DNA of 64,000 bases. Source: Diprion similis. Its lineage: Eukaryota; Arthropoda; Insecta; Hymenoptera; Diprionidae. Where the stretch lies: positions 5,835,501 through 5,899,500 of the forward strand of contig NC_060106.1 of NCBI RefSeq assembly GCF_021155765.1, read 5' to 3'. The notes beneath the pieces were generated by a model. It did not search any database. It was not told the origin of the DNA and was given only the letters and a program-made list of their open reading frames with translations. Of the stretch, positions 25,601 to 64,000 are shown piece after piece. The translations under genes and the position numbers were made by a program. Positions within the stretch are counted from its first letter, which is position 1, and the number at the start of each line of letters is the position of its first letter.

Positions 25601-28600
25601 CTTCTAATAAATACAAAGAATTTGAAAAGATCTTATTTTATTTATGATTTTTTATTCAAATTAGCGTATTTTCATATGCATTAGCATTCATTTCCCGTTA
25701 CGTATGTACCCATAAATTCGGCTATAATATACATTAGTTAATTGAAGATTCGCCTAGTCATCAGTCAGTTTAATAATTGCCATTCTAGTATTTGCTATGT
25801 AACGAAATGTATATGGTGAAAATCGTTTCGACAATTGTTTCTTGTAGTAAGTCAGTATCATTGAGGCGGTAGTAGAGAAACTCATATTCAGTCAGTGGCC
25901 ATCCCGATTTTGATTATGCCATTTCAAGTCTTTAAGTAATTTTGAAAGTAGTACAATGTGTTGGGTATAATCCTGAATGGAAAAACACCGCCTAATATAT
26001 ATTTATTGATTATCCAAGATATCGTACTACAAAATCCAGATTTTAACATTTTCCCTCGAGATATCTCAGCATGTAGACTCGTATCTTAAATTCACTGTCC
26101 AGTCGATATTTATACATTACATATAGGAAATATGCAACACTCTGGAAGAAAAAAATACTTATGTAAAAAATTTTTTAAAACCAAAATAAGGTCATGGATT
26201 TTTTTTAGTATTTTCACACGTTAAACTTTAAGATGTCATGCCAAGACCGTAAAAATTGTCCAAAATCTTGATGCAGGAAAGAAACGTTCAAAATTGTTGT
26301 TTTCAGGCTGTTCATACCATGGTGTGACGGGCCCTCCTAATGCACCAATGAAAAATGTTTGAGGAATCGATTTGAAACATCTAATATTTCCCTGAGAAAT
26401 TAAGAAAAAAAAATATGGGGATAGGTCATTATCGGATATCATTCCGAGTTGGTCACAATACAATGTTGATATAACATTAAAGATATACATATAGCCTTAA
26501 TGGATTGCATATATATATACCTATATATATATATATATACATCATTTCTGAATACGTTCTTAGCATATAGATATATTTAATGTAATGGCGAATAAATTCA
26601 ATGTATCAGTTATTTACCAAGTGTACAAAATATGAATAACAAGCATTTGTGATTTACAAATCAAGATACCGTATTATTCCAAATATAAGTCAACCCATAG
26701 TTTCAGTATACATTTCAGACCTTTTTTGGTACTGAACATAAGTCGACTTTTATGACAAAATTGATATGACAAAAGTATGTCTACATACAAACTTAAAAAC
26801 TGCAATTTTTTTAAGTAGATACATTCATCAATGGAACTTAGATAGATGAAAACATCACAGCATTAATTCCATTGGTCTAATTTTGTGATTGAACTGTTCA
26901 TAAAATAGAATTCCAGTCTGTAAGGCAAATTTCGTTAAAGTCCCGAATACAAGTCGAGGACGATTTGGACAATTTGGGGGTCATGTCTGCAAACAAAAAC
27001 TTCGACTTATATTTGGAACAATACGGCAAACATTTTATGAGCTATCAATATAGTATATATGTATTATTTTTCTTACATGATATATTTTGATAGTATCAAC
27101 ATGTAGTTTATACATACCTATAGTATTATTATAGATCGTAGACCAAATGTATTTACATCATTTTCTACTAAGCAATCAATTCGCATAAGTATAGTAACAT
27201 CAGATTGACTCAATCGAACAATCGGTACAGTATGGGGTCTTAACTGCTTGAGGTAAATGTACACGTCGACGTAATTTTAGCACCAAAACTGTATAAACGT
27301 TTACTCTAAATGAAAAAGTACCAAAAATTTTTCTTAATTTTACAAAAACTTGAATAAAACACAAAATAAATGTATAAATTAATTTAAAAATTCATGTGAT
27401 GAAAAATTGTATGTTTTATTAAATTTTTTTTGGGATCAAACACCACTCGACTTTGAACGAAATATTTGAATACTAAATAAATAACATGTTATGTTAATTT
27501 TTACTCTTTTTAAATCATACATGAAATAGAAAGTGGCCTTCAAATTGTTCCAAGTAAATAAACTCTGAGCAACGCATAGGCCAATCTCGTGAAATTCTTA
27601 ATCGTGTGTGTAATGAATATATCAATGACACCATCAACTAAATACATGCTGATTGCGTATCGAATATATTTTGTACAAATTGATGTTTATGTATATATTA
27701 TAATGTCCTATGAAATATGAAGGATCTAATGTTTAAAAAGAAAATTTCAAACTTGGAAGCCATGGACTGAAATTTTTAGCGTTTCATAAAATTTTGATAT
27801 TGCACAAGCGGAAAAAAGTACAAACGTTAATAAGCTCTGCAGTTACAATGATTTTAGAGTCACATGGAAGTGAAAAGAAAGGGGGAAAAAACCATAATAA
27901 AAAATTGGCAACTACCTAATTTGCAAGTATATGAAACACCATAATTTATGTAATCCAATGAACGAAATGTCTTGACGCGCAAGTCACGTGAAGAACACAT
28001 ATTTGTAACTGTGAAATAGGCCTTAAAAAATTTTGAATGAATGACAAAATATTCTAAGTAAAAGATTACTACATTAAATTACTAGGCGACTTTTATAGAT
28101 AATTATAAAACTATTGTACTACCTCGATGTTTTTATAAAGAAGAAATGTGTAGTCAGTGGTCTAGTGAGATGAAAATTTACACAAAGTTCTATTATGAAA
28201 TATGAAAATATGCCAAAGCTTAGCGAGTTGTATACAAGGTGACGCGCAGTACAAAATGTTTGTACTAGTAATAATACCAGGAAGTGAGTTGTCTTTCTTC
28301 GTATCATTATCAATACTATTGTTTATGGGTACAATGAATCATTTTTTCTGCTGAGTTACATGATTATTCAACCTGGAAATATGCAAAATATCAAGTTAAA
28401 GCTAATCGATGTAACGGAAACTTTCCAATTGAAAGAATTTTAGTAACCTTATGCTAAGTTCAGTTTGATTCTGTTTTTGCAATATTCAAAACATCGGATA
28501 AAATTTTAGAATTTTTTTTTAGACGTATCAACTCGTGAATAATAACACAATAATAAAGATATACATGTAGATAACGACTCCGAGCAACAACTTGTAACAA

Positions 28601-31945: not shown

Positions 31946-34900
31946 ATGTTGGGGTTCACTTTATGGAATCGTCTTCTAAAATCTGGGCTAAATGACAGAG
32001 AACTTTGGATAAAAACTGTCAAATTTTCGTCCTGTGCCGCGAGACCTGTCCTTTTGTACAGAGGTTCGACACACAGGTATCACCTTCGTGGATCGCCTAT
32101 TACAGTAATCGGACTAAGGGTAATATTTATAGGACTCCAGCTGATTTTAAAGCTATTAATTTTTAATTACACTGAATGAATTGACAACTTTCACATAAGT
32201 TTTACATACAGTAAACTCACTTTACCTGCCTCGCTTCTGTGTAAATTTATATTCTTTGAATTTCAAAGTGAAATAAGAAATGTTTCTGAACGTGTAAATG
32301 TTTTATCAATTAAAAACTAAGGATTCTATACCTAATGACTTTTGCGCTGAGTCAATATGGAAATCTGTTTACTACGGTGTCAATAAAAAAAAATTGAAAT
32401 GGAATGACGACATTTTCAAAATACAGTAAATGCAGCTAAATGTGTTACTAACCTTCCCACGAGTTTTTGGAGTAACAGATGAGTCTTTCACTAGCTAAGA
32501 AGAGAATTTTTATTTCAACAATAATAAAATCCTTTTCACGTACTCAATTGTCATGATTAACATATCTTTAAGGTAATGTATATTGCTAATGAATTTTCAA
32601 TTAGCATTGGCATGATACTTTGGTCGCATAATTACATAACCAGCAGTATGTGAGCGTTACAATTGACATGTAGAAATAGTAGTCAATCCGTTGAAACATA
32701 ATTTTCATTAATGTTTTGATTTGCGGGTAAGATGATTGAAAAATGATGTAACTAAATGACATTTATATGGAAAACATCATGATTCTTCGTCTGATAAATG
32801 TTTTCTAATATACATCATTATCTCAAGATTTTTCGTAACAATCTGTCGCAGTTTTATGATTGTAGTTTGTGGCGGTAATTCAACAAATATTAATATATCA
32901 ATATATGAATTTTTGATTCATACATAGAATTTATAACAAGCATTAAGTTTGTCGTTTGAGTAATAATTTATTTTCCAATTGCTAAAGTACCTGAATTTCT
33001 CTTTATATTTTGTTTTATTAACTTCACAAACTTCAACCTCAGAATGTTGACAGTTTTTTTTATATACGTCAAATTGTTTTATTCCTTCTGCAGATATAAA
33101 TAACCACCTCAATAAATGGGTATGGGTCGTACGTTGAGAAGTCGTCGTGCAAAAAGGAAATATTCTTCGTTTCAATCAGAACTCCAAGATGCTATTGTAC
33201 TTGATCGCTTGTTAGTCTGGATGCGGTCCAAGAACTGGTCCTCAACCTGTAGTTTAACTTGTTATTACTTCCCTGAAACAGGGCGGGGTTTAAAAGCACT
33301 GAAAAAAATCAAACAGAATGAGATAATAGTAGAAATACCTAAACATTTATTGATTACAACAAATACTATTTCTCAGAGCCCTATTCAGCATATACTATCC
33401 AATCCAAAAGTATCTGATGCTCAAAGTGTTTTGGCTGCATTTTTGGTCTATGAAAAACATCTAGCGGATGAATCTGAGTGGAAACCGTACTTAGATTCCC
33501 TTCCCAAAACATTCACTAATCCATATTTTTGTACCATGCGAGAGAAAAAACAATTGCCCAACTTTATACTTGAAACGCTGAATCTACAATCAGCTCAAAT
33601 TAAGAGTACATATTTAGCTCTAATCGCTGCCCTTAAAGATGTTCGTACTCAATGCAATGGCAATGGTTCATTTTCTGAAAACATGGAAAAGTGTCGGCAC
33701 TGTTATATGAGTTATGAAAATATTTTTACTTTTTGTAAGTATCAGTGGGCATATTTCGTTGTAAATACACGAGCAGTTTACATAGATCTTGGAAAAGCAG
33801 ATAGCAGATTTAGGAATAATAATTTGGCGTTGGCACCTTTTTTGGATTTATTTAATCACAGTTTTGATGCTTCCGTTAATACTGGTCTCATGAAGAATCA
33901 AAACCAAGCAGAGTGTTATCAAATTACAACATTGAAGTCCTTTGATCATGATTCTCAAGTGTTCATAAATTATGGTTCTCATGATAATACAAAACTATAT
34001 GTTGAATACGGATTTTTCATACTTGATAATCCACTGGATGAAATAATTTTTAACATATCAGATATTAATAGCTGTATTACTTTGTCCGAAGTTCAGTACA
34101 ACTTTTTAATAACTTGTGGATTTGATAAAAAAATGGGTTTTAATTCAACTGGACTTAATTATAATGGAAAAATGGCACTGTTTATTGCAGTCACTAAATT
34201 TAGGCGGAAAGATTGGCTGATGAAAATATATGGAGATGATCTGCATGACGATGAATTAACGGAAATTTATTTGGTTGGGAGAAAAATATTAGAACGGAAA
34301 AAAAAAGGTCTTGTAAATCACCTTAGCGATATGAAAAAATTCCAGAAAACAAGTTCTAGCTTCAAAATTGCTCTAGGACTTGTAGAAGCTCAGATTCGCG
34401 TATTAGAATATTCATTTCAAAAGTTGTGTATAAATTAAGTTGCTTGTAAAATAATTTTCGTTAGGTAATGTTTTTATGCTTTTGTATAATATAAATATTC
34501 GTATAAAATATTCATACACGGATCTACTTTTATATATGTATTATTATTTTTGTGCCTGTACATATAATGTAGAAGAAAATAAGTATTTGAAGAATAAAAT
34601 GAATTATAACTAAGAAGGGCTTGTTCAATTTTGAGCTAATGAAGCCATTTCTATCAAGAATTTGTGCAAAGGTTGGCAAAAATTCGTAGCTGCTCTACTA
34701 ATTCAGCCTAATCTTAAAGCTTTCCACATTGAACCTAAGTTCGTGATACTATCCAAATAGTCGCAATCCGTACACATCACTTTTGAACATAATCCAGTGC
34801 AATTTTATCCGCAGCATTTTTATTTTGTACAGAAAAAAAAACAAATTAGAAATCTGAAGAGTTGAGTGCAAATTGGCATAGGTATTCATTCGTTTTTATT

Positions 34901-46252: not shown

Positions 46253-48825
46253 TCAAAAATCTCCCATTGCTACAATGATATTTGATAATGCTGTTCTTGC
46301 ATCACTTTCTTCAAATACAGCTAATACTTCCATAGCACGCTGCGAGTGCTCCTTTTGTAACTGTTTTGTCAGTTCAACACCAGGTCCTGACACAATAATA
46401 TCATGTACCTGTAATTCAGTTCAACAACATTAAACATCAAACCACAGTAAAAAATTAAGAGGAAATTAACTAGGTAGAACGTATTTTATTATATACCTTG
46501 GTGTAGTCCACGTTCTGAACAGATTCCAGTCCTTTGTCAATTTCAGTTAAAATAGCGGGATCATGTTCGATATGAAACATGACTGGTGCAGAGCACAAAC
46601 TGAATGGTACAGTTTGATCTTTACCAGTGAATGGACCCAAGTCTAAACAAGCCTGAAATATTTTATGAAGAAACATATAAATATTGTTTTAGCAAGGTAA
46701 CGTAAAACTCTGCAGTAAAGAATACTTTAAAGGTCGGGAGGCTGAAAAATTCATCGACTAAAAAGCGCAAGTAGAAATTGCTTGATTTATTACAGACAAC
46801 TGTTTCGTATGCAACAATAATTGAATGAAATATATTGTAAAAACCTTTGCTTGTTATTATGAATTCAATAACATTACCTGCCAGGCAAGAGCCAAATGTT
46901 TTCCAAAATTATAGCCTTGCTCCTGTATTTCATCGCTATGACCAGCCAGCTTCAAGGTTCCCTGACAAGACTTTCCGAGCAAAGCACCAGCACTTAGAAC
47001 ATTCCTAAATGTCCATTCGGTAACTGCATATCCGGTACGGTCTGCAGGTGGTATAGATGGTAACGGATTATTCTGATTATCTCTTCGCCCAACGAATTCA
47101 CCTTCTGCTAAGTCACGAACTGCGCTTGACATCAGTTCAACAAGCTATAAGATCAAAGAATATTATTAACAACGAAATGTTATCCCTAGGCTAATAGGGC
47201 TAGTATCAAGACTGATATTCTCCGATGGATAATTACAACCGACATCAATTTCATATGCAATTTCAAAACTCACAGTTTTCAACTTTAAATGTTGAATCAG
47301 CTCAAATGTTCAAGAACCTGTTAAGCACATTGCTAAAATCTGTTATATTCCGTGATGTTATTCAGTGATTCTAAACCGTTGATCTTTTATTTCTTACTTT
47401 TAGGTAACTATGTGCTTTTGTAAATTATTTTACAGAGACAGGCAGTTAGTGACCTAACCATTGTATAACAGTATGTCTGTGGTTTCAAGTAAACAAGTAA
47501 ATAAATAAATTGGCAAGATGTCGGTCATTCACGAATATGATTTTTGAACAAGCGATTAGCACTGAAGTACACACCGTACACTTACATCTTGATTTCTAAG
47601 CGAAGCTAACTCTGCGCAGCTGTTACCCAGGAGATAATCACCACTTAAGAGGGCAATTTTGTTACCGAACGTCATATCGTTCATTTCAGATGCCTCTGGA
47701 TAAACTCCAGGTTGGATATTTACCAAACCCTTATGAACAAGATGACTCGTCCGTATCATTTCCGTAACCTCAGCTAGTGCTCTCTGACTGTAACGCAACA
47801 TTACCGATTATATTGTGAATCTAAATTAAATGTTGATAGATTGAATATTTTTATGCCTCTGATTTCTTACCTGTGTAAGACTCCGGCAGCTTTGTCCTCC
47901 TCCATATCATCGACACTCAAATGGCCAGCTGCTTTTGAAATTAAAAGTACAATGAGGCCCCATGCCTGCATATTATTGCGGCCATTATATATGAGACTCC
48001 TGCAAAATTTTATAGAAATTTTTATAATTTAGCTAGATGAAAAATTTTAAATAATATAAATAACTAATTATTTATTTTTATAACTAACTATTATGATAAA
48101 AATAACGTATTGAATGTGAGAGAGATAGATATAATTTGAGTCAATACGTTTTTGTAAAATGGAAACATTTTGGAAAGTTGGCATATTTATTACAATATAT
48201 AAGCATATCTTTTTAATAATTGTTGAAAACGTTTAAATAGTTCGAGATAAAAATGCAAGGAGCACTCAATTTATGTTCAAAAAAGATTGGAACTAGCAAT
48301 TAAACAAAAATGACCTGCTCTTGGATAGGACAAGTGATTCTGCCTTTCTAATTACAAACCAATTTTACAGGAAATTCCTATGACTGAATTTTCATTAATT
48401 GCAGTGTTTCTACAATTGGTAGCAATTTCACATTGTGTTGCTTGCGTTATCAACTTTACGAAGTAAATTGTAATGAATTTGTTTAGACGTATGTGAATGC
48501 TCCGTACTTACTTGGCTGTTTTTAGAAGAGGATGATTAGATCCGACCAACTTTCTTAAATGAAGAGCAACATTGGCAATTTCGTCGCTCAGAAGCCATCT
48601 CAAGCTCAAAAATGATGTCGGATATCCGACTATTTTTTCAGCCTCAGATACAGCTCTATTCCAATCAGGTTTTGGATTAGTCGCAGTTTTGACAGCGAAT
48701 CTATTTTCCTTAGTTTCATGAAACTGTCTTCCTTGGGTACCGATCACCTTGTATTTATTATATAATATCGACGATATTGCGTTACTTCTTCTCAACAAAT
48801 TTGCGGCGGTATTATTTACAGACAT
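46253..48825 (-). CDS. PDSS2: Decaprenyl diphosphate synthase subunit 2
   Basis: Non-catalytic partner of PDSS1 in the mitochondrial trans-prenyltransferase that makes the ubiquinone side chain. Minus-strand exons in order: 48512-48825, 47871-47999, 47586-47787, 46878-47144, 46497-46652, 46253-46408; all phases fit, giving 407 aa (human 399). An Arg/Ser/Asn-rich N-terminus ([16 protein letters not shown]) suits mitochondrial import. Recognisable blocks are [65 protein letters not shown] and a C-terminus ending IIVAMGDF. As known for this subunit, the aspartate-rich motifs of active prenyltransferases are gone: the first site reads HLVHKGLVN and the second [10 protein letters not shown]. The start ATG at 48823-48825 is the first in frame. 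No damage was seen. Confidence 0.95.
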
Positions 48826-49761
48826 TTTAGTGAAAATAAATTTCCTGTAAACACCAAGGGTAGCAAGAAAATTTCACTCCAGTGTCGGTCGACCGTAGGC
48901 TTATTGACTACTAGTTACTTCTACACTAATGCCTCATCAAAAAAAACTTTCTCTTCTGTCCTGATTTCCAATTGTTGACTTCTAAACTGAATTCCATCTG
49001 TATTGGACACAAGTTCACGTATTCATCAGTAGTTATTTCCTATTCGTACCCCTTGCTCGTTACTTCACATTATATTTCATCGAAAAACACGAATTTCGTT
49101 TCATAATATTCACAACAAAAACTGATGCTCGTCTCATATTATAAACATACTATTACATACCACCGCTCCAAGTGTCGATGCGAGCGGAGATCACGGCAGC
49201 ACCCGGACACAACCAACTAATTGTGAAAGGAATGTCCGAATGTATCACTATGTATACCCCGTTCGCGGAGAAAGTCGCTTCGAATGCCTACACGAACATG
49301 TGACGTCATATTACCAACGAGATGGGAGAAGTTGATTTGTTATTTATACACAACGTTATTGCACGCGGTGAGCGATGGTAACATCAGTTTCTGTTGCCTC
49401 AACGTACCGACCGCTCGCCGTCTTGAGCACTTGAGTTTCGCGTACAGGGTAGGCGCAGAAGGCGCCGCTTGACGGTGAATTTATCTCGTCCATTTTCGAT
49501 TACGAAAAGCCTCATAGGTAAGTTCTATGCTCATAGGGCTGTATAGCATTGGAATGTGCTATAGAAAATTGCTGATCAACGAAATATTTCACCGCAAAAA
49601 AGATATCCTGCCATACCACCTGAGGTGAGATATTTCTCTGATCAGCAATTTTACACATCTCAATTCGATTTCAGCAGCATTTATCAAGGCTTTATTGACA
49701 ATTCCGGTAATCATAGCACACATCGCTTCAGATGTTTGTAAAAAAAAGTCTCATCGGAAAT
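48826..49761. promoter_or_regulatory. PDSS2 upstream region with a possible divergent first exon
   Basis: Contains PDSS2 5' sequence, then a GC-richer stretch at 49160-49500. At 49511-49524 there is an excellent plus-strand donor, CTCATAG|GTAAGTTC. This could end an untranslated or short first exon of a plus-strand transcript; a frame at 49284-49472 is open upstream of it. No downstream exon could be identified. Confidence 0.3.
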
Positions 49762-50544
49762 ACAAAAGATTTGATTAGCTGGAACAGACAAAAAATTTGA
49801 TTAGCTGGAACAGACAAAAAATTTGATTAGCTGGAACAGACAAAGATTTGATTAGCTAAAAGTGACAAAAAGTTTCATTAACTGAAACAGTGGAAAAGGA
49901 TGGTTAAGTAAAACAGTTAAAAACATTGATTAGCTAAAACAAACAAAAGGTTTGGTTAGCTGAAACAGACAAACGGTTTGATTAGCTGAAACAGACGAAA
50001 AATTTGATTAGCTGGAACAAACAGAAAATTTGATTAGCTGAAACAGACAAAATATTTGATTAGCTGGAACAGACAAAGATTTGATTAGCTAAGAGCGACA
50101 AAGAGTATGTTTAACTGAAACAGGCAAAAGGTTTCATTACCTGAAACAGTGAAAAAGCATGATTAAGTAAAACGGTTAAAAAGTTTGATTAGCTGAAACA
50201 AACAAAAGGTTTGGTTAGCTGAAACAGACGAAAGGTTTGATTAGCTGAAACGGACAAAAGGTTTGACTAGCTGAAACAGACAAAAGGTTTGATTAGCTGA
50301 AACAGACAAAAGGTTTGATTAGCTGAAACAGACAAAAGGTACGATTAGCTGAAACAGACAAAAGGTTTGATTAGCTGAAACAGACAAAAGGTTTGATTAG
50401 CTGAAACAGACAAAAGGTTTGATTAGCTGAAACAGACAAGAGGTTTGGTTAGCTGAAACAGACAAGATTTCATTAGCTCAAATAGATGAAAGGTTTGATT
50501 AGCTGAAACAGACGAAAGGTTTCATTAGCTGAAATAGATGAAAG
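49762..50544. repeat. 26-bp minisatellite array (long copy)
   Basis: About 30 copies of a 26-bp unit, consensus GGTTTGATTAGCTGAAACAG plus ACAAAA. Units at the left are diverged (GGAACAG, AAAGTTTCATTAACTG) and those at the right are nearly uniform. A GGTACGATT variant marks some units. The array ends at GAAAGGTAAATAC, the start of the 7.1-kb duplicated segment. Confidence 0.92.
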
Positions 50545-50804
50545 GTAAATACTTACGAAAAGATTCTTCACCATCACTATACACTCCGCGATTTCCATCC
50601 CCGGGGATTGACCGCCGGCTTGCAAATGCCACGCGTTCTCTCAGAACCAAAAAGTATCAAGTCAACGCGCAAAAGGCACGGTGAATTTGAACTTGAAAAC
50701 TCAGTTGTTCGTAACGAGATTGATTGAACAGCCGAAAGTTTACTTTTTCACATACTGTTTATGAAATCGTCAAGCTAAAGGATCGATCGATTGATTCGCA
50801 TTAT

Positions 50805-51210
50805 CAAGGTGGCGACAATTTCGCTCAAATATAATTCCTTCACTATATATTTTCTGACTCTTCCCGTCAAAACAATCAGAATTGACCGATATTTTACCAC
50901 GAAACTTAAATTAGGTAATGTTGGGCAGTTTTTACGACCAAAGGCTCTAGAATTTATGCACTTTGAATAAGTAAGTTTGGATCTGAAAAACACATTGTAT
51001 TGCCTTCGTTTCACACGAAGAATTAGAAATTGAACGACCCCATTTTTGAAAGTTAACTCAACTGAATTTAAGAAGCATAGCTGAAGTTTGAAAACGATTC
51101 TTTGAAAACAGCAAGTTTTTCTTCTCTATGCCCAATCATATCTCCCTGACGTTTTCCTGACTTTTCCCGATGAAGTGAATTCCCGGTTTTCCCGGTCCGA
51201 CGCCACCCTG
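50805..51210. mobile_element. CAGGGTGGCG-ended MITE, copy A
   Basis: 406 bp, starting CAAGGTGGCGAC and ending with the inverse of CAGGGTGGCGTC. Subterminal TTCCCGGTTTTCCCGG and TTTTCCCGATGAA motifs are typical of insect DNA-transposon MITEs with such ends. Roughly colinear with the element at 54577-54959, but clearly diverged. A minus frame (50775-51014) is incidental. Confidence 0.65.
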
Positions 51211-51345
51211 ACTCGATCACTGGATCACTCGATCTCTCGACCACTCGACCACTGGGTCACTGGATCACTCGGATACGGGGTTACTATCACTGGATCACAC
51301 GATCTCTGCGCCACTGGGACCCTCGATACGTTCGATCCCTCGATC
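51211..51345. repeat. Degenerate 8-bp (ATCACTCG/ATCACTGG) array
   Basis: Repeated GATCACTGG, GATCACTCG and GACCACTCG units follow directly from the end of MITE copy A. Every few units contain the GATC core. Confidence 0.8.
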
Positions 51346-52016
51346 AGTCCGCAAGGGAACGTCAGTAATTTCCGGCCCACATCAATAATCTTCATTGTTT
51401 TTCTACTAGTTATCCGTGTATCGTATAATAGTATTAAACGCCTTCCAACGCACCCCCACGACGGGGGGGTTACAGGAGGGTTACAATTCCAGCAAAATAA
51501 ATTACAAAAAAATGTACAGTCGCTCACGCGAAACTTATTGTACGCATTGATTGAAACATAAAAAGCCTAGAAAGTATCGTCTGCCGCCTAAATTCCACGA
51601 CAAAACTCGTCTTCCACCCACGTATGTAAGTACGTGCGACAAAATATTTAAAAAGCTCATACCTGCAAGGATGAAATTGATTGCAATGCTTTATTTTATA
51701 GTAAGAAACTCAAGAATAATAGTCAACCACCTAAACTATACATCGAAAGTACTCTTCCAAGTCCATGAAGCTGCTCCAGGCACGCAGCTACGATGCTGCG
51801 TCTTTACGAGCTGCCTGAAAGACGATCGTTGCTGTTCTACATGTTGACCGACTGTCATGAAGTTTTTTTTTGTTTTACATTTTTTCAGTGAATCAATTTG
51901 AACTTTGGCGGATAGTTATACTAGATCCCCTACCATGAAAATCGAGAGTTAGATATATTAATGAAATTCTATAAAAAGCTTCAAATTAAAACAACAATGC
52001 TTTAGTATGACATTGA

Positions 52017-52602
52017 TCTTCAATATCAGAATTATTGATTTCACCACCGTCTTCTTCGTCTGATTGATCTTGGTCTTGTTCTGTACTTGTTTTTTTACTT
52101 GTAAATATGTGAATATAATAATTTGTTAATGCCTAGATAATTTTTATATAACTTTTAAAATTTTTTCTACTTTATTTACAATACCTAGACTTTCTGCTGA
52201 ATTAATTGTTATGTCATCGATGGATTTAATTGTACAAGTTTATTATCTGATTCATCCCAACCATAGTCAGTAGGATAAAATTCCTTCGGTTACGGGAGAC
52301 AAGCATGCGTCCAAAGATTTTGTAAATTTTCATTTAAACAAAATTTTCTCCCGCTGCCTGTGGTTGGGAAAAGTCAGATAATAAATTTGTTTCTCAATTT
52401 AATCCATCGATGACATAGTAATCAACTCAGAAAAAAATCTAGGTATTATAAATAAAACATACAAAATTATATACATAATATTACATAAATAATTATTTAA
52501 TCATTACTACATTTTTATATTTATATATTTACAGATGAAGAAATAAATACAGAACAAGACAAAGGGGACAATGCTGGAATCAATAATTCTGATATTGAAG
52601 AT
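52017..52602. repeat. Central palindrome with a transposase-tail-like coding remnant
   Basis: TCTTCAATATCAGAATTATT at the left is mirrored by AATAATTCTGATATTGAAGA at the right. The arms close on TGTCATCGATGGATTTAATT and its inverse near 52211 and 52420. The right arm holds a splice-like TTTACAG (ends 52534), then a 32-codon acidic frame to TAG at 52630-52632 (…EINTEQDKGDN…, ending MDECS). The left arm holds a diverged copy on the minus strand with a duplicated acidic EED segment. Read as the last exon of a transposon gene; that is inference. Confidence 0.6.
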
Positions 52603-53208
52603 TTAAATGTAATAATGGATGAATGTTCATAGAATTACCTTTGTCAAACAAGATGAGCACACGTTATACAGCATGCACATTTTAAATATAGAATTCTTTA
52701 AAGTGAAAATCAATAAGTATTTTTTTTTTACCTCAACTCACGACTATTCAATAAAAGAATAGAGTGAAATATTGGGAAAAGACGCTGTAATATCACCTCG
52801 GCTTTCAGATTTCCGCATATTAGTCTGGATTTTCTCGGAATTAATCCTCAACGTCATTGTAAAAGATTGTTTTTCTTATCGTAAATCATTTTATCGAATT
52901 TCATCGATATATTTGAGTCTCGATTTTAACGGTAGAAGATTTAGTACGACTATCCACCAAAGTATAAATTAATATACTGAACAAATATGCAACATAGAAA
53001 AAAAAAAAAAAAAAAAAAAAAAACTTCAATGTAGTCATTCAACTATTTCGAACAACAGTGATCGTCTTTCAGGCAGGACTTGACGATGCAGCTTCATAGG
53101 CTTCGAAGACGACCTTCGTTGAACCTTAGGGCGGTTCAAATAGGGCGTTATTTAAGATTTCGCTCTTCACTAAGGAATAGTTCGAGTAGAAGGGCTGGGC
53201 TGAGGAAA

Positions 53209-53538
53209 ATTAGGTGTGCAAATGAAAAATTCCATTAGTATCGTCAGATCAAATGTCGAAGAATAATTGACACGTATTATTTCTTTTTTTGATTTAACGT
53301 TCCGTAACAAAGATATAGCAGTTTGAAATTGACACGTGACGTCACAATGTTACTAGATATAGATATACTACAATGTAATAAGTGTACAACATTATGACGT
53401 CACGCGGAATTCTACTAGCTGTATCTTTGTTAATAAGCATTGAATTGAAAAAAGAAAAATTACGTGTCAATCATTTTTCGACATTCTATCCGACGATAAG
53501 AATGGAATTTTTCGAAATTTTTTATTTGTACACCTAAT
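53209..53538. mobile_element. Foldback element inserted in the right arm of the palindromic element
   Basis: ATTAGGTGTGCAAATGAAAA at the left pairs with the right end TTTTTTATTTGTACACCTAAT. Matching continues through GTCGAAGAATAATTGACACG and TGACGTCAC to a centre near 53375. No coding frame. Confidence 0.75.
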
Positions 53539-53547
53539 TTCTTACTA

Positions 53548-53928
53548 CCGCCTCAACGACATTGAAATTTCGAAAAAACGCTATCTTAGGGAATTTCAAA
53601 ATTGAGATATCCTTGGATCCTTCAGCGGCTATGTTCAATTTGTATGACGAAACAAAAGTTATCGTAAGACCTGGCATGCATGTGATTTTTTATAGTGCCG
53701 AAAAATCGGCGTCGAAGTTCATTGCAATGTTTAAAAGTTAAAAATATTCTTCATCTAAGAATTTCAGGATAGATGTTTCAGTACTCAAAAAAATCGGACG
53801 CCTCTCAGGACTCGTAAAAACTTCTGTTTCGTCACACAAAACATATCCACCGAAGGATTCAAGGAATATCTCAATTTTGAAGTTCACGAAAATGGGCTTT
53901 TTTCGAAATTCCATCGTCGTTGAGACGG
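53548..53928. mobile_element. Second foldback element abutting the first
   Basis: CCGCCTCAACGACATTGAAA pairs with the inverse of CATCGTCGTTGAGACGG. The arms extend through GATATCCTTGGATCCTTC against GAAGGATTCAAGGAATATC, about 110 bp per arm, with a centre near 53735. Confidence 0.75.
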
Positions 53929-54448
53929 AAGTGAAAAAAAATTTACATCCCAGCTATTGAGCGTTGTCTATTTTTTAGTAAAATAGTGCAAGAATCTCGG
54001 GGAAGACCGAAAACCAAAAGAAAGAACCTTTCTCGAACCACCCTGTGAAATGTATTCTGTAGATGGAAGACTATTATTTTTGTGTTTCTCACTATAAGAA
54101 ATAGCATTCTAATCAATTTTATCCCCGCAGGCATGATTTAAAAAAAAAAAAAAATTTCGCGCTTACTTATGTCGGCAGAAATAGAGTTCGTCGTGGAATT
54201 TGGGCAGAAGACGGTATTTTCTAGGCTTCTTATATTTCAATCAATCCCTTCGATAAGTTTCGCGTATGCGGCTATACATTATTTGGTCAATTTCCTACTG
54301 TAAATTGTAACCCTCCTGCAACCCCCCGTCGTGGGGGTGCGTTTTTAAGGCGCGTATATTACTGTTTTGCGATACACGGATAACTAGTACAAAAAAATGA
54401 AGCCTACGGAAATGGTGTAATGAAATACGTCGTTACCTCCCGGACTAA

Positions 54449-54576
54449 ATCACTCGACCCATCGACCTCTCGAACTCTCGGTCACATGATCCCTGGATCA
54501 CTCGATCTCCCGATCACTGGATCACTCGAGCACTCGGTCACTCGATCACTGGACCACTCAATCACTCGATCAAGCG
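54449..54576. repeat. Degenerate 8-bp (ATCACTCG) array, second site
   Basis: The same GATCACTCG/GATCACTGG units as at 51211-51345 and in the same strand sense, here immediately before MITE copy B. The arrays therefore border the palindromic element on both sides without being inverted. Confidence 0.8.
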
Positions 54577-54959
54577 CAGGATGGCGTCAATTTTACTCAA
54601 AGAAAATTCCCTGACTCTTCCCGTCAAAAACTACAGAATTCCCTGATGTTTCCCCACAAATATTAGGCAATGTTGGGCAGTTTTTATGACCAAAAGTTCC
54701 AGAAGTTGTGCAACTTGAATATATAAATTTGAATCTAAAAAACACATAGTATTGCTTCGTTTCACAAGAATAATTAAAAATCGAACGCGATACCATTTCC
54801 GAGAGTTAGCTCAACTGAATTTACGAAGCATAGCTAAAGATTGAAAAAGATTTGTAAAAACTGTCCGTATTACTTTAGGATCCATAATAATTCCCCGACT
54901 TTTCCCGATAAACGAAACTCCCCGACAATCCGCGGTTTTCCCGGTCTATCGCCACCCTG
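54577..54959. mobile_element. CAGGGTGGCG-ended MITE, copy B
   Basis: 383 bp, starting CAGGATGGCGTC and ending CGCCACCCTG. Direct-orientation relative of copy A: both share AATGTTGGGCAGTTTTTA, GAAGCATAGCT and the CCCGGTTTTCCCGG-type end. Confidence 0.65.
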
Positions 54960-57318
54960 ATTACGAATCGTCGCGCAAATGACGCGTCTGATTCCCGTGA
55001 TTAATCTACGCGCAAAAAGGCGCGGCCGATTAATCCGTCTAAAAAAATCTTAAATGTCTAGGACTTGTCGCAAAATTCTGTAGAAAACCAATTCGCATCT
55101 GCGTCTTTTCGAATCCGACACATTGCGATGCGAATTGTTGTTCCGAGATGCGAGTCAAGTCCGGGAGGGAGGTTGGAGGACATGCATTATTGTGTGGCGT
55201 GACGGTCGGCGGTCCTCTTCGACGCGAAGTCTTCGAGCTCAGCATCTCTCCCCATCTAGCGTACCACGGAACGCGATAGATGGTCCAGAGATGCGTTTTG
55301 CCCAGTCAGACGATCACAGAGATCAATTGAGTGAAGTAATTACAGATAATGACTACATAATTGAATTCAATGAGGATTGAAAAATGGTAGCAAAGTGACA
55401 AGAAATGGGAAATTGAACCTCGTTAAGATTTGAAAGTTTACCAGTAAATAGTTCGGCAACTTTTATATTCGGTCTTTCGCGTATTTCTGGATGAAAATCA
55501 CTGTGATCATTTGACGCTGTGGATTACAAAAATTAATAACATCGCGGTGCATCGCGACCTTCCTACCCTCGCCTGATTCCCAACGGAACCACCCAACGGA
55601 AATGATTAAAAGAAATTCACACGCACATCCACATCAAACCCCGCGACGGATCCCACAACGACCACCTACCTACCCGATTACCTATATTCGCTCTAAACGA
55701 TTCTCCATTTTTTCCAACACACATCATTCATCCTCATTTACGCCGTGGTCACCGTGACTTACTTTTTCATTACCTGTGGGGAGCAAAACGTTTTTGTACC
55801 ATAGTCAGCAAGAGTATTATTTTAGACATTGCTGGCGGACTATCGGTACATCAACCTTTTGTAAAATGGATTAAAAACATCCTGTATGCTTATCAGCATT
55901 TTTCTAAGCGAGCTAAGTCTATGGTTGTTCTATAGTTGCTGGGCATTAAAAAATTCAAATTCAAGATTCAAGATATATCATGCAAGCTGATTACATTACG
56001 TTATGCCAGACTTTGAAACGTTATCAATTAAACAATCGTTGGAATATGTTTAAACCTCAGGTTTATCCACCAATTAAACGACATCATTGTAATTATATAA
56101 TCTGTAACTAAACACAATCTGTTTTCGCGAATGTTGAGTAAGTGATGGTAACCTGTCGCGATGCTCATTCCACTTTCAGCAACGTGCAAAATTTTTAACT
56201 TTGAGTAACTGTCGTAAAATAGGTCAACTCTGATGAAAAAGTAAGAGAAAACGAAATTCATTGACTGAAATTCAAGCACCGTTGAGATCGCGAATGAGCC
56301 TATCCATGCAGCTAAGAAATCGAAGATTTATGTAACAATTGTTACCGCCACGCCACGTGATAAAGGACTCCCAGGGAAATACCCGTAACCTAACACATGC
56401 AAACTCACCAACGTTGCTGAGTAATGGAGAAGTTACTCGGATGTCTCTGCTTCACTCTGAAAGAACGGAAAGGAAATTTTAGTTTTTAGATAAATTATTA
56501 CTGTAGTCTAGTTCCATATTGATTCACCGCGTGTTACGCAATGCCAAAAATTAGATTTCAAATGTAACGCATTGAATTATGAAAAACAATAATTAAAATA
56601 AGTTTTCTTACCTCCTCCGGGTTGCTCCACACTTTACATGTGTGTGTAGTAGCTCTCGTAGCATCTCAGGTTGTACGATGGTGACACACTTCTCACACTA
56701 CAATAAGAATATAATAAATTATTACTCACACCATGTACTTGGATCAGATTTCATGACACCACAGACTGTCTGTGTCAAATGGAGTTTCTTTCATGATATT
56801 CAGTGGTTTCTGATTTATTTGCAAATGAACTTTAGAAATTAATACTAAAGGGCTAATAAAATAAGCATAGATATTGAATAAATGCCTAAAATTAATGAGC
56901 AGCTAAAATAATTTATCATCAAAAAGGGACGTAACAATTAAAAATCATATCCAATATATACCTTTCAGGTTTATTCACTGCATAGCGGATGGTTTAGTTT
57001 TAAGTTTGTTGTCAGAGATCGATTAATTGGGTTGCGTCACTTGGACCATCGTTAAATGTGGTCGATAGTGCTGCGATATAGCTGCATATGTGCCCCTGTA
57101 AACAGGTGAGATATAACATTTTATTAGAACTTGTTTTTCAAAATCAATACACAAGACATTGAAAAATTACTGTTATTTTTGTAAAATATCATGATGGACT
57201 GAATAGCATCAATTTCAACTGACAAATTTCTCAAATTGAAATTAGCCCAAAGGTATAATCAAGAACGATCTTAAATGTGTACCTGTTTTCTGGTCTTCCA
57301 CAAAATCGCTACTTATCC
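54960..57318. other. Low-coding tail of the duplicated unit
   Basis: Contains a plus frame at 55123-55380 of 85 codons without a recognised family, a CTTAC|CTCC donor-like site (minus strand) at 56610 and a polypyrimidine-rich C/A stretch at 55550-55740. No gene could be supported. The sequence recurs at +7119 as far as the window extends. Confidence 0.4.
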
Positions 57319-57664
57319 AGACAAACGGTTTGATTAGCTGAAACAGACAAAAGGTTTGACTAGCTGAAACAGACAAAAGGTACGATTAGCTGAAACAGAC
57401 AAAAGGTTTGATTAGCTGAAACAGACAAAAGGTTTGATTAGCTGAAACAGACAAAAGGTACGATTAGCTGAAACAGACAAAAGGTTTGATTAGCTGAAAC
57501 AGACAAAAGGTTTGATTAGCTGAAACAGACAAAAGGTTTGATTAGCTGAAACAGACAAGAGGTTTGGTTAGCTGAAACAGACAAGATTTCATTAGCTCAA
57601 ATAGATGAAAGGTTTGATTAGCTGAAACAGACGAAAGGTTTCATTAGCTGAAATAGATGAAAGG
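57319..57664. repeat. 26-bp minisatellite array (short copy)
   Basis: About 13 units of the same 26-bp repeat as at 49762-50544. It is preceded by non-repeat sequence ending CGCTACTTATCCAG, and its right end is identical to that of the long array. Compared with copy one, units near 57380 are out of register (GGTACGATT where copy one has GGTTTGACT). Confidence 0.92.
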
Positions 57665-60600
57665 TAAATACTTACGAAAAGATTCTTCACCATCACTATA
57701 CACTCCGCGATTTCCATCCCCGGGGATTGACCGCCGGCTTGCAAATGCCACGCGTTCTCTCAGAACCAAAAAGTATCAAGTCAACGCGCAAAAGGCACGG
57801 TGAATTTGAACTTGAAAACTCAGTTGTTCGTAACGAGATTGATTGAACAGCCGAAAGTTTACTTTTTCACATACTGTTTATGAAATCGTCAAGCTAAAGG
57901 ATCGATCGATTGATTCGCATTATCAAGGTGGCGACAATTTCGCTCAAATATAATTCCTTCACTATATATTTTCTGACTCTTCCCGTCAAAACAATCAGAA
58001 TTGACCGATATTTTACCACGAAACTTAAATTAGGTAATGTTGGGCAGTTTTTACGACCAAAGGCTCTAGAATTTATGCACTTTGAATAAGTAAGTTTGGA
58101 TCTGAAAAACACATTGTATTGCCTTCGTTTCACACGAAGAATTAGAAATTGAACGACCCCATTTTTGAAAGTTAACTCAACTGAATTTAAGAAGCATAGC
58201 TGAAGTTTGAAAACGATTCTTTGAAAACAGCAAGTTTTTCTTCTCTATGCCCAATCATATCTCCCTGACGTTTTCCTGACTTTTCCCGATGAAGTGAATT
58301 CCCGGTTTTCCCGGTCCGACGCCACCCTGACTCGATCACTGGATCACTCGATCTCTCGACCACTCGACCACTGGGTCACTGGATCACTCGGATACGGGGT
58401 TACTATCACTGGATCACACGATCTCTGCGCCACTGGGACCCTCGATACGTTCGATCCCTCGATCAGTCCGCAAGGGAACGTCAGTAATTTCCGGCCCACA
58501 TCAATAATCTTCATTGTTTTTCTACTAGTTATCCGTGTATCGTATAATAGTATTAAACGCCTTCCAACGCACCCCCACGACGGGGGGGTTACAGGAGGGT
58601 TACAATTCCAGCAAAATAAATTACAAAAAAATGTACAGTCGCTCACGCGAAACTTATTGTACGCATTGATTGAAACATAAAAAGCCTAGAAAGTATCGTC
58701 TGCCGCCTAAATTCCACGACAAAACTCGTCTTCCACCCACGTATGTAAGTACGTGCGACAAAATATTTAAAAAGCTCATACCTGCAAGGATGAAATTGAT
58801 TGCAATGCTTTATTTTATAGTAAGAAACTCAAGAATAATAGTCAACCACCTAAACTATACATCGAAAGTACTCTTCCAAGTCCATGAAGCTGCTCCAGGC
58901 ACGCAGCTACGATGCTGCGTCTTTACGAGCTGCCTGAAAGACGATCGTTGCTGTTCTACATGTTGACCGACTGTCATGAAGTTTTTTTTTGTTTTACATT
59001 TTTTCAGTGAATCAATTTGAACTTTGGCGGATAGTTATACTAGATCCCCTACCATGAAAATCGAGAGTTAGATATATTAATGAAATTCTATAAAAAGCTT
59101 CAAATTAAAACAACAATGCTTTAGTATGACATTGATCTTCAATATCAGAATTATTGATTTCACCACCGTCTTCTTCGTCTGATTGATCTTGGTCTTGTTC
59201 TGTACTTGTTTTTTTACTTGTAAATATGTGAATATAATAATTTGTTAATGCCTAGATAATTTTTATATAACTTTTAAAATTTTTTCTACTTTATTTACAA
59301 TACCTAGACTTTCTGCTGAATTAATTGTTATGTCATCGATGGATTTAATTGTACAAGTTTATTATCTGATTCATCCCAACCATAGTCAGTAGGATAAAAT
59401 TCCTTCGGTTACGGGAGACAAGCATGCGTCCAAAGATTTTGTAAATTTTCATTTAAACAAAATTTTCTCCCGCTGCCTGTGGTTGGGAAAAGTCAGATAA
59501 TAAATTTGTTTCTCAATTTAATCCATCGATGACATAGTAATCAACTCAGAAAAAAATCTAGGTATTATAAATAAAACATACAAAATTATATACATAATAT
59601 TACATAAATAATTATTTAATCATTACTACATTTTTATATTTATATATTTACAGATGAAGAAATAAATACAGAACAAGACAAAGGGGACAATGCTGGAATC
59701 AATAATTCTGATATTGAAGATTTAAATGTAATAATGGATGAATGTTCATAGAATTACCTTTGTCAAACAAGATGAGCACACGTTATACAGCATGCACATT
59801 TTAAATATAGAATTCTTTAAAGTGAAAATCAATAAGTATTTTTTTTTTACCTCAACTCACGACTATTCAATAAAAGAATAGAGTGAAATATTGGGAAAAG
59901 ACGCTGTAATATCACCTCGGCTTTCAGATTTCCGCATATTAGTCTGGATTTTCTCGGAATTAATCCTCAACGTCATTGTAAAAGATTGTTTTTCTTATCG
60001 TAAATCATTTTATCGAATTTCATCGATATATTTGAGTCTCGATTTTAACGGTAGAAGATTTAGTACGACTATCCACCAAAGTATAAATTAATATACTGAA
60101 CAAATATGCAACATAGAAAAAAAAAAAAAAAAAAAAAAAAAACTTCAATGTAGTCATTCAACTATTTCGAACAACAGTGATCGTCTTTCAGGCAGGACTT
60201 GACGATGCAGCTTCATAGGCTTCGAAGACGACCTTCGTTGAACCTTAGGGCGGTTCAAATAGGGCGTTATTTAAGATTTCGCTCTTCACTAAGGAATAGT
60301 TCGAGTAGAAGGGCTGGGCTGAGGAAAATTAGGTGTGCAAATGAAAAATTCCATTAGTATCGTCAGATCAAATGTCGAAGAATAATTGACACGTATTATT
60401 TCTTTTTTTGATTTAACGTTCCGTAACAAAGATATAGCAGTTTGAAATTGACACGTGACGTCACAATGTTACTAGATATAGATATACTACAATGTAATAA
60501 GTGTACAACATTATGACGTCACGCGGAATTCTACTTGCTGTATCTTTGTTAATAAGCATTGAATTGAAAAAAGAAAAATTACGTGTCAATCATTTTTCGA

Positions 60601-63600
60601 CATTCTATCCGACGATAAGAATGGAATTTTTCGAAATTTTTTATTTGTACACCTAATTTCTTACTACCGCCTCAACGACATTGAAATTTCGAAAAAACGC
60701 TATCTTAGGGAATTTCAAAATTGAGATATCCTTGGATCCTTCAGCGGCTATGTTCAATTTGTATGACGAAACAAAAGTTATCGTAAGACCTGGCATGCAT
60801 GTGATTTTTTATAGTGCCGAAAAATCGGCGTCGAAGTTCATTGCAATGTTTAAAAGTTAAAAATATTCTTCATCTAAGAATTTCAGGATAGATGTTTCAG
60901 TACTCAAAAAAATCGGACGCCTCTCAGGACTCGTAAAAACTTCTGTTTCGTCACACAAAACATATCCACCGAAGGATTCAAGGAATATCTCAATTTTGAA
61001 GTTCACGAAAATGGGCTTTTTTCGAAATTCCATCGTCGTTGAGACGGAAGTGAAAAAAAATTTACATCCCAGCTATTGAGCGTTGTCTATTTTTTAGTAA
61101 AATAGTGCAAGAATCTCGGGGAAGACCGAAAACCAAAAGAAAGAACCTTTCTCGAACCACCCTGTGAAATGTATTCTGTAGATGGAAGACTATTATTTTT
61201 GTGTTTCTCACTATAAGAAATAGCATTCTAATCAATTTTATCCCCGCAGGCATGATTTAAAAAAAAAAAAAAATTTCGCGCTTACTTATGTCGGCAGAAA
61301 TAGAGTTCGTCGTGGAATTTGGGCAGAAGACGGTATTTTCTAGGCTTCTTATATTTCAATCAATCCCTTCGATAAGTTTCGCGTATGCGGCTATACATTA
61401 TTTGGTCAATTTCCTACTGTAAATTGTAACCCTCCTGCAACCCCCCGTCGTGGGGGTGCGTTTTTAAGGCGCGTATATTACTGTTTTGCGATACACGGAT
61501 AACTAGTACAAAAAAATGAAGCCTACGGAAATGGTGTAATGAAATACGTCGTTACCTCCCGGACTAAATCACTCGACCCATCGACCTCTCGAACTCTCGG
61601 TCACATGATCCCTGGATCACTCGATCTCCCGATCACTGGATCACTCGAGCACTCGGTCACTCGATCACTGGACCACTCAATCACTCGATCAAGCGCAGGA
61701 TGGCGTCAATTTTACTCAAAGAAAATTCCCTGACTCTTCCCGTCAAAAACTACAGAATTCCCTGATGTTTCCCCACAAATATTAGGCAATGTTGGGCAGT
61801 TTTTATGACCAAAAGTTCCAGAAGTTGTGCAACTTGAATATATAAATTTGAATCTAAAAAACACATAGTATTGCTTCGTTTCACAAGAATAATTAAAAAT
61901 CGAACGCGATACCATTTCCGAGAGTTAGCTCAACTGAATTTACGAAGCATAGCTAAAGATTGAAAAAGATTTGTAAAAACTGTCCGTATTACTTTAGGAT
62001 CCATAATAATTCCCCGACTTTTCCCGATAAACGAAACTCCCCGACAATCCGCGGTTTTCCCGGTCTATCGCCACCCTGATTACGAATCGTCGCGCAAATG
62101 ACGCGTCTGATTCCCGTGATTAATCTACGCGCAAAAAGGCGCGGCCGATTAATCCGTCTAAAAAAATCTTAAATGTCTAGGACTTGTCGCAAAATTCTGT
62201 AGAAAACCAATTCGCATCTGCGTCTTTTCGAATCCGACACATTGCGATGCGAATTGTTGTTCCGAGATGCGAGTCAAGTCCGGGAGGGAGGTTGGAGGAC
62301 ATGCATTATTGTGTGGCGTGACGGTCGGCGGTCCTCTTCGACGCGAAGTCTTCGAGCTCAGCATCTCTCCCCATCTAGCGTACCACGGAACGCGATAGAT
62401 GGTCCAGAGATGCGTTTTGCCCAGTCAGACGATCACAGAGATCAATTGAGTGAAGTAATTACAGATAATGACTACATAATTGAATTCAATGAGGATTGAA
62501 AAATGGTAGCAAAGTGACAAGAAATGGGAAATTGAACCTCGTTAAGATTTGAAAGTTTACCAGTAAATAGTTCGGCAACTTTTATATTCGGTCTTTCGCG
62601 TATTTCTGGATGAAAATCACTGTGATCATTTGACGCTGTGGATTACAAAAATTAATAACATCGCGGTGCATCGCGACCTTCCTACCCTCGCCTGATTCCC
62701 AACGGAACCACCCAACGGAAATGATTAAAAGAAATTCACACGCACATCCACATCAAACCCCGCGACGGATCCCACAACGACCACCTACCTACCCGATTAC
62801 CTATATTCGCTCTAAACGATTCTCCATTTTTTCCAACACACATCATTCATCCTCATTTACGCCGTGGTCACCGTGACTTACTTTTTCATTACCTGTGGGG
62901 AGCAAAACGTTTTTGTACCATAGTCAGCAAGAGTATTATTTTAGACATTGCTGGCGGACTATCGGTACATCAACCTTTTGTAAAATGGATTAAAAACATC
63001 CTGTATGCTTATCAGCATTTTTCTAAGCGAGCTAAGTCTATGGTTGTTCTATAGTTGCTGGGCATTAAAAAATTCAAATTCAAGATTCAAGATATATCAT
63101 GCAAGCTGATTACATTACGTTATGCCAGACTTTGAAACGTTATCAATTAAACAATCGTTGGAATATGTTTAAACCTCAGGTTTATCCACCAATTAAACGA
63201 CATCATTGTAATTATATAATCTGTAACTAAACACAATCTGTTTTCGCGAATGTTGAGTAAGTGATGGTAACCTGTCGCGATGCTCATTCCACTTTCAGCA
63301 ACGTGCAAAATTTTTAACTTTGAGTAACTGTCGTAAAATAGGTCAACTCTGATGAAAAAGTAAGAGAAAACGAAATTCATTGACTGAAATTCAAGCACCG
63401 TTGAGATCGCGAATGAGCCTATCCATGCAGCTAAGAAATCGAAGATTTATGTAACAATTGTTACCGCCACGCCACGTGATAAAGGACTCCCAGGGAAATA
63501 CCCGTAACCTAACACATGCAAACTCACCAACGTTGCTGAGTAATGGAGAAGTTACTCGGATGTCTCTGCTTCACTCTGAAAGAACGGAAAGGAAATTTTA

Positions 63601-64000
63601 GTTTTTAGATAAATTATTACTGTAGTCTAGTTCCATATTGATTCACCGCGTGTTACGCAATGCCAAAAATTAGATTTCAAATGTAACGCATTGAATTATG
63701 AAAAACAATAATTAAAATAAGTTTTCTTACCTCCTCCGGGTTGCTCCACACTTTACATGTGTGTGTAGTAGCTCTCGTAGCATCTCAGGTTGTACGATGG
63801 TGACACACTTCTCACACTACAATAAGAATATAATAAATTATTACTCACACCATGTACTTGGATCAGATTTCATGACACCACAGACTGTCTGTGTCAAATG
63901 GAGTTTCTTTCATGATATTCAGTGGTTTCTGATTTATTTGCAAATGAACTTTAGAAATTAATACTAAAGGGCTAATAAAATAAGCATAGATATTGAATAA
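57389..64000. repeat. Second copy of the 7,119-bp duplication, cut by the window end
   Basis: Repeats the first copy at +7119. The components are at: MITE A 57924-58329, 8-bp array 58330-58464, palindromic element about 58430-61567, central palindrome 59136-59721, foldbacks 60328-60657 and 60667-61047, 8-bp array 61568-61695, MITE B 61696-62078, low-coding tail from 62079. About 0.4 kb of the unit lies beyond the right edge. Confidence 0.92.

Follow-up and report, generated by a model that had tools for sequence, protein, structure and literature searches.

A near-identical tandem array in Diprion similis belongs to a dispersed family of possible spliced noncoding RNA genes

In mammals, SNORD115 and SNORD116 (SNHG14) form tandem host-gene arrays, and in insects there are Helitron-like elements that bear minisatellites. 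A locus of Diprion similis can be set beside both: a tandem array of a 7,119-bp unit that begins in the right part of a window of 64,000 nucleotides (the whole stretch analysed, C2:5835501-5899500, in an assembly of 269 Mb and 60 contigs; positions without a contig name are those of the window). The locus is like SNORD115/SNORD116 in having tandem noncoding exon units downstream of 5' exons that are present once, these being putative here; it is unlike them in that the window has no match in Rfam 15 at the gathering threshold and no recognised small nucleolar RNA (box motifs were not tested), and in that its family is scattered over about 73 loci, with transcription that is putative. With Helitron-like elements it shares short tandem repeats within a dispersed element; it differs in that no sharp ends were seen and that its repeat can be read as a succession of 3'-splice-site-like units. 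A literature search of partial coverage found no description of such a family. The explanation that we favour, with confidence somewhat short of even, is that the locus belongs to a multi-copy family of spliced noncoding RNA genes and has been amplified downstream of its 5' exons.

A sequence-only reading of the window had described a near-identical duplication of 7,119 bp with a single substitution (A53417/T60536), the identity beginning within a 26-bp array. Both points are borne out: at an offset of 7,119 the window matches itself without a gap over 50268-56881 (6,614 columns, reaching the final base at 64000), that substitution is the sole mismatch between copies 1 and 2, and the match begins inside a minisatellite. 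In the assembly the duplication is genuine, the most recent layer of a larger phenomenon, but as a pair of copies it was incomplete, for the assembly holds four head-to-tail copies, of which the window shows under two. One unit query matches at C2:5886500, 5893619, 5900738 and 5907857, a spacing of 7,119, and the array runs from 50268 to about 78677 in window-relative terms (its end being C2:5914177). Across the four copies 7 of 7,049 columns (50268-57316) are variable. A control stretch of the window, 24001-26000, has a single match in the 269-Mb assembly, namely itself. The parts of the array are as follows.

49762-50546, minus strand: 26-bp minisatellite M0, about 30 units (Tandem Repeats Finder, TRF)
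50268-57386, no strand: copy 1 of the 7,119-bp unit; ungapped identity with copy 2 from 50268
57387-64000, no strand: copy 2, partial at the window edge; copies 3 and 4 lie further right
57310-57320, no strand: tandem junction, unique sequence ending in CTACTTATC joined to minisatellite CAGACAAACGG, with 3-bp microhomology CAG on the plus strand
57318-57665, minus strand: minisatellite M1 at the junction, 13.5 units (TRF), identical in sequence to the other inner minisatellites, M2 and M3, and unlike M0

The unit query matches many sites in the genome (125 candidates, of which 40 were scored). In 20 stretches of 10 kb the unit plus sequence on either side aligns at about 70-97%. A 42-bp word from the conserved core, chosen from near-invariant columns, occurs 86 times in the genome at up to three mismatches (65 perfect, 17 with one, four with two and none with three), 48 on one strand and 38 on the other; these occurrences cluster into 73 loci on 13 contigs (C1-C4 and C6-C14), a count that more diverged copies may escape. 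By comparison, a 42-mer from a variable stretch about 1.35 kb from the core word has five copies, four of them in the window array and all of them in two loci of C2. The nine C4 loci with a core word lie between 14.2 and 23.7 Mb, with none in the first 14 Mb, and C5 has none. Two pairs of core words stand in opposite orientation, C12:3657045/3665652 (8.6 kb apart) and C14:9597740/9614229 (16.5 kb).

Bins of 250 bp of the unit that are found in more than one locus show 81-98% identity over 14 loci, those other than the core 81-96%. A scan for conserved segments of at least 40 bp returned 14 in total, seven of them in 54981-56448, where the core is the longest of all.

55057-55316, minus strand: conserved core block, 260 bp, 97.7% identical to the window array over 14 loci; copy at 62176-62435
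54981-55025, minus strand: conserved segment (segment scan)
55548-55590, minus strand: conserved segment (segment scan)
55647-55724, minus strand: conserved segment (segment scan)
56148-56198, minus strand: conserved segment, possible exon (segment scan and splice-signal analysis)
56287-56326, minus strand: conserved segment, possible exon (segment scan and splice-signal analysis)

Over 14 loci the only indel in the core segment is a one-base deletion, found in three loci; over 34 loci there are single-base indels at two additional places. A plus-strand frame in the core is broken, mostly near its end, in 14 other loci, and an examination of stop-to-stop frames gave no long open frame common to the family copies. 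The core and the family are read as noncoding, without certainty. A tRNA search found none, and Rfam by E-value gave two hairpin matches to microRNA models, both in a nested inverted repeat and far below thresholds. A viral origin was also considered and rejected, a 38-bp core word having no exact match in viral contigs.

The minus strand of the unit, and of the sequence to its right, carries splice-like signals from which putative exons can be delimited.

56409-56446, minus strand: putative exon C, 38 bp, acceptor CAG and donor GTGAGT; copy at 63528-63565
56612-56632, minus strand: 3' end of putative exon B; donor GTAAGA in 12 of 15 sequences, GTAAAA in 2 and GTGAGA in 1
57283-57317, minus strand: 3' remnant of putative exon X, with donor GTACAC; the duplication truncated it and joined it to the minisatellite
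78640-78769 (window-relative), minus strand: the one intact putative exon X, at the array's right end
78953-79051 (window-relative), minus strand: putative exon Y, right of the unit and outside the array
50557-50566, minus strand: putative exon end and then donor GTAAGTATTTACC, immediately before the minisatellite in the direction of the putative transcript; second copy at 57676-57685

The acceptor CAG of exon C is kept in 14 of 15 sequences and its donor GTGAGT in all 15, and a pyrimidine-rich stretch precedes the exon. Only 2.1% of exon C cells differ from the window, without gaps; the intron towards exon B has 17.8% divergence and 152 gap cells, and the stretch on the other side of exon C 6.8% and no gaps. 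Taken together with the following GTGA, exon C has 52 genome copies at up to three mismatches (20 perfect), 50 of which lie within 2 kb of a core word. Ten sequences were searched for exons X and Y, one of them giving no alignment: the acceptor AG of exon X is present in seven of seven aligned sequences, that of exon Y in seven of eight, and the donor GT of exon Y in seven of seven, and in both exons there are indels whose length is not divisible by three. It was the last 35 bases of exon X, before its donor, that the duplication placed against the minisatellite. From these signals the locus looks like a spliced right-to-left transcript with a single 5' part, at the right end of the array.

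On the minus strand the minisatellite unit is CTGTTTCAGCTAATCAAACCTTTTGT, with a branch-point-like CTAAT, a pyrimidine tract and CAG, and the 785 bp of M0 contain 21 CTAAT and 27 YYYYAG. At the window locus a donor, GTAAGTATTTA, stands immediately before the minisatellite; this word recurs in L013, L015-L018, L020-L025, L030 and L054; L014, L019, L026-L029, L031 and L032 lack it, some of them stopping short or being without the region. Over nine minisatellite arrays the acceptor A is conserved at 92%, the G at 94.5% and the TAA at 93-94%; other columns are equally kept (TT 95-98%, TTT 94-96%, one A 94%), and weaker ones include the C of CAG (82%) and the lowest three (62-67%). This pattern would be compatible with a chain of acceptors and is no proof of selection. 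Minisatellite loci number 37 (collapsed from 40 of 73 candidates, those that were scored), and at 36 of them a core word lies within 8 kb, the exception at 18.3 Mb on C6 matching the right part of the family. The distance from the minisatellite to the nearest core word is 0.65-1.9 kb at one group of 26 loci and 4.5-6.6 kb at a second group of nine; for C1:11984167, at 2.1 kb, it was taken to the core word of the neighbouring array copy. Two such groups would be as expected from the presence or absence of a block like the one nested in the window unit.

51211-54609, no strand: nested block, rich in inverted repeats, flanked by direct repeats of about 350 bp (50854-51211 and 54611-54960)

A copy on C8 (L054) has a single repeat of about 350 bp and no such block, and in about 5.4 kb it runs in the order left part, minisatellite, one repeat, core and right part. 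An inverted-repeat element at 53207-53540 is present in the window array and in the C2 locus at 7.6 Mb (L027-L029) and unaligned in 13 other loci; because it aligns only in the two C2 loci, it is probably a recent insertion common to both.

Tandem arrays of the family stand at three other places. The one at C1 10.21-10.27 Mb has six copies, each about 10,268 bp long, of which the two inner ones are 99.97% identical, while edge copies give 99.2-100% when compared; at C2 7.61-7.63 Mb there are three copies, each about 8,524 bp long (99.7-99.8%), and C1 11.98 Mb has two, with lengths of about 7.3-7.5 kb (98.8-99.2%). In the inner copies of these arrays homology to the window unit ends at about 57166, 55827 and 55985, as against 57317 here, and since the breakpoints differ the four arrays are taken as independent events. 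The core is included in all four, and exon C is in every copy in two of them; as the core word was used to find the arrays, any without a core may have been missed, and the genome list of exon C gave no additional array.

How the window array arose can be read in part from its ends. The left breakpoint is inside the 26-bp minisatellite and the other is in unique sequence, the right end of copy 4 continuing into sequence that is not minisatellite (minus strand GCAGAAACTGAATAAGTAG). On the minus strand the junction is TTTGTCTGGATAAGTAG and the minisatellite unit TTTGTCTGTTTCAG, the only common word being CTG (3 bp), with one further base changed; on the plus strand the inter-copy junctions read CTACTTATC/CAGACAAACGG and the end of copy 4 CTACTTATTCAG, with CAG common and the adjacent base different. 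The same junction sequence is present three times in the array. The proposal of a breakpoint in the minisatellite therefore holds for the left end and fails for the right end of the last copy, so that a young tandem duplication with one minisatellite breakpoint is supported, whereas an origin by unequal exchange or slippage between arrays, as the sequence-only reading had suggested, finds no minisatellite on the right flank of copy 4. Because the second breakpoint is unique sequence with 3 bp of microhomology, we reject exchange between two repeat arrays as the start; the initial join would fit a microhomology-mediated or replicative event. Polarity of the variants was taken from 14 other family loci, where alignable: copies 1 and 2 share the derived bases T51503 and A55180, copies 3 and 4 share C53975 and C55976 (the former with a single parallel change in L031), and derived A56073 is common to the first three copies; site 53417 alternates A, T, A, T along the array (its sole outgroup, L029, has T), and site 57253 is ambiguous. 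As the derived bases are distributed as a mosaic among the copies, unequal crossing-over would fit a later step, and solely that from two copies to four; this test comprises seven sites, the alternating and the ambiguous one included.

If the window locus does belong to a family of noncoding RNA genes, each of the 73 or more loci would be a multi-exon unit that encodes no protein, on the minus strand at the window, with 5' exons to the right, then short conserved exons, a functional core of about 260 bp, and last a donor followed by the 3'-splice-site-like minisatellite. A piece of 7.1 kb, starting within exon X and ending within the minisatellite, would have been duplicated through a microhomology-type join, and the tandem then enlarged to four copies through unequal homologous exchange. 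Since the array has its 5' exons at the right end alone, transcription, if it occurs, would most likely give one long RNA, in which the last donor of each unit joins minisatellite acceptors before the next unit and which would carry the conserved core four times. A broader proposal takes these dispersed loci, at least about 73 in number, as spliced noncoding RNA genes of an insect family undescribed in the literature searched. After the core, the minisatellite would offer a series of alternative 3' splice sites, and tandem amplification at four loci would lead to RNAs with several cores joined through the acceptor chain; in this full form we consider the proposal unlikely. Were the family to make RNA, dozens of dispersed constrained noncoding genes, several of them tandemly amplified, would exist in one insect genome, and one could ask about selection on noncoding RNA copy number and about a minisatellite as a splicing signal.

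A number of observations weigh against a family of RNA genes. The conserved exons and splice sites are present as sequence signals only, L031 is without the exon C acceptor and L029 without that of exon Y, and the copy number at the window locus comes from one assembly. Across the core runs an 88-amino-acid minus-strand frame that 10 of 15 sequences keep open; three have it shifted and two have it stopped. The words that were compared had been picked for being conserved or variable, and for a nested-block word at 52868-52909, itself picked as conserved, 27 copies were counted (17 perfect, eight with one mismatch and two with two); the segment scan likewise returned seven more segments in 51142-54545, made up of simple repeats and the nested block. 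Loci with the nested block are equally similar there, and so the strength of core conservation comes mainly from its spread across the 73 loci, whether or not they carry the block. At the outer ends of family members similarity fades at differing places, in pairwise as in multiple comparison, and constraint across copies could also arise in the source lineages of a mobile element. The folding of the core gave a mixed picture. Its folding z is -2.3 on the plus strand and -2.95 on the minus strand, 2 of 200 shuffles being as good on each. Over 34 loci, with a structure derived from the same sequences as the covariation test, 98.2% of cells pair (shuffles 98.0%, 0 of 500 as high), double-change cells number 10 (shuffle mean 3.8, none as high), the covariation score is 0.032 (shuffles 0.028, none as high) and the pair 209-230 is compensated in five of five changed sequences. 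Pairs with a double change show no excess in the same loci (2, shuffle mean 2.5), nor do further pair types (24, shuffle mean 26); the pair 44-84 is compensated in five and broken in nine of 34, and variability is no lower in pairs (52 of 174 paired columns are variable, 34 of 107 unpaired). A kept RNA fold of the core thus finds no support in the covariation and column tests.

A close rival to the gene-family reading is that these loci are a large non-autonomous transposon family, the conserved blocks being cis sequences for an absent or separate autonomous partner and maintained by selection in source lineages, with the arrays formed by later ordinary duplication. We regard this as a real possibility, if not a probable one: it would account for dispersal over 13 contigs on both strands, for the internal nested repeats and insertions, for members that adjoin unrelated genes (five flanking frames with five different Pfam domains) and for a nested block kept as well as the core among the loci that carry it, but terminal repeats were not seen in the two loci tested (window and L054), no sharp common ends were found, the copies share no long open frame (this comparison did not extend to a six-frame search for transposase domains), and an element that needed only cis sequences would have no use for splice-like signals round the 38-bp segment. 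A noncoding mobile element with conserved splice-like signals would be likewise unusual, and either way the window duplication is just the latest trace. A further reading, an ordinary young tandem duplication (as in the sequence-only reading) of repeat-derived, functionless sequence, agrees with the near identity, the many nested repeats, the want of a long reading frame and the nested-block word being likewise well kept; the 86 core and 52 exon C copies, against five for the nearby variable-stretch word, and the conserved splice-like signals make it improbable.

Haplotypes or mis-resolved repeats could instead have inflated the copy number at the window locus, as copies 1 and 2 group against 3 and 4 at four sites, which two concatenated haplotypes might give. 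Such a two-haplotype artefact, also raised in the sequence-only reading, might alter the copy number but would not alone produce the junction, which recurs identically three times, and site 56073 groups copies 1, 2 and 3. The three other arrays, with their differing periods and breakpoints and an internal divergence of up to about 1.2%, argue for biology over artefact, and contig C1 begins with a telomere-like TTAGG repeat array (C1:5-524 onwards), which is in keeping with an insect and suggests a contiguous assembly; we hold an artefact to be very improbable. Lower still we place a protein-coding family of short exons with an overlooked frame. Its plausible splice sites, its short open stretches and the 88-amino-acid frame, where open, would suit it, but that frame is not kept in the remaining sequences, four short fragments gave no Pfam match (the 88-amino-acid frame itself lying outside that search), exon indels are not triplets, and 15 of 52 exon C copies carry a stop-creating change in one frame. 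Codon-position and synonymous tests gave a coding reading no support, and in the codon test nothing stood out: the top z was 3.85 among 5,823 overlapping windows, and the leading windows were scattered over both strands.

To the left the array is adjoined by an open frame on the minus strand (48511-48873) without a Pfam match, which we take to be PDSS2, and to the right by a gene with a zf-tcix domain (window-relative 82575 onwards), presumably C2orf42. Four other family members lie near frames with the Pfam domains HOOK, ADP_PFK_GK, CSTF2_hinge and DNApol_Exo. One family copy, L021, is interrupted by an open frame (3437-3979, reversed orientation) with no Pfam match, in which we believe we recognise a resemblance to part of a non-LTR (long terminal repeat) reverse transcriptase. 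Elsewhere in the window, a 440-amino-acid open frame with a SET domain (33116-34438) is, we assume, SETD4-like, and at 19950-20245 a 149-bp stretch is perfectly duplicated in tandem, with a third copy, inverted, nearby at 20353-20524 (88-89%).

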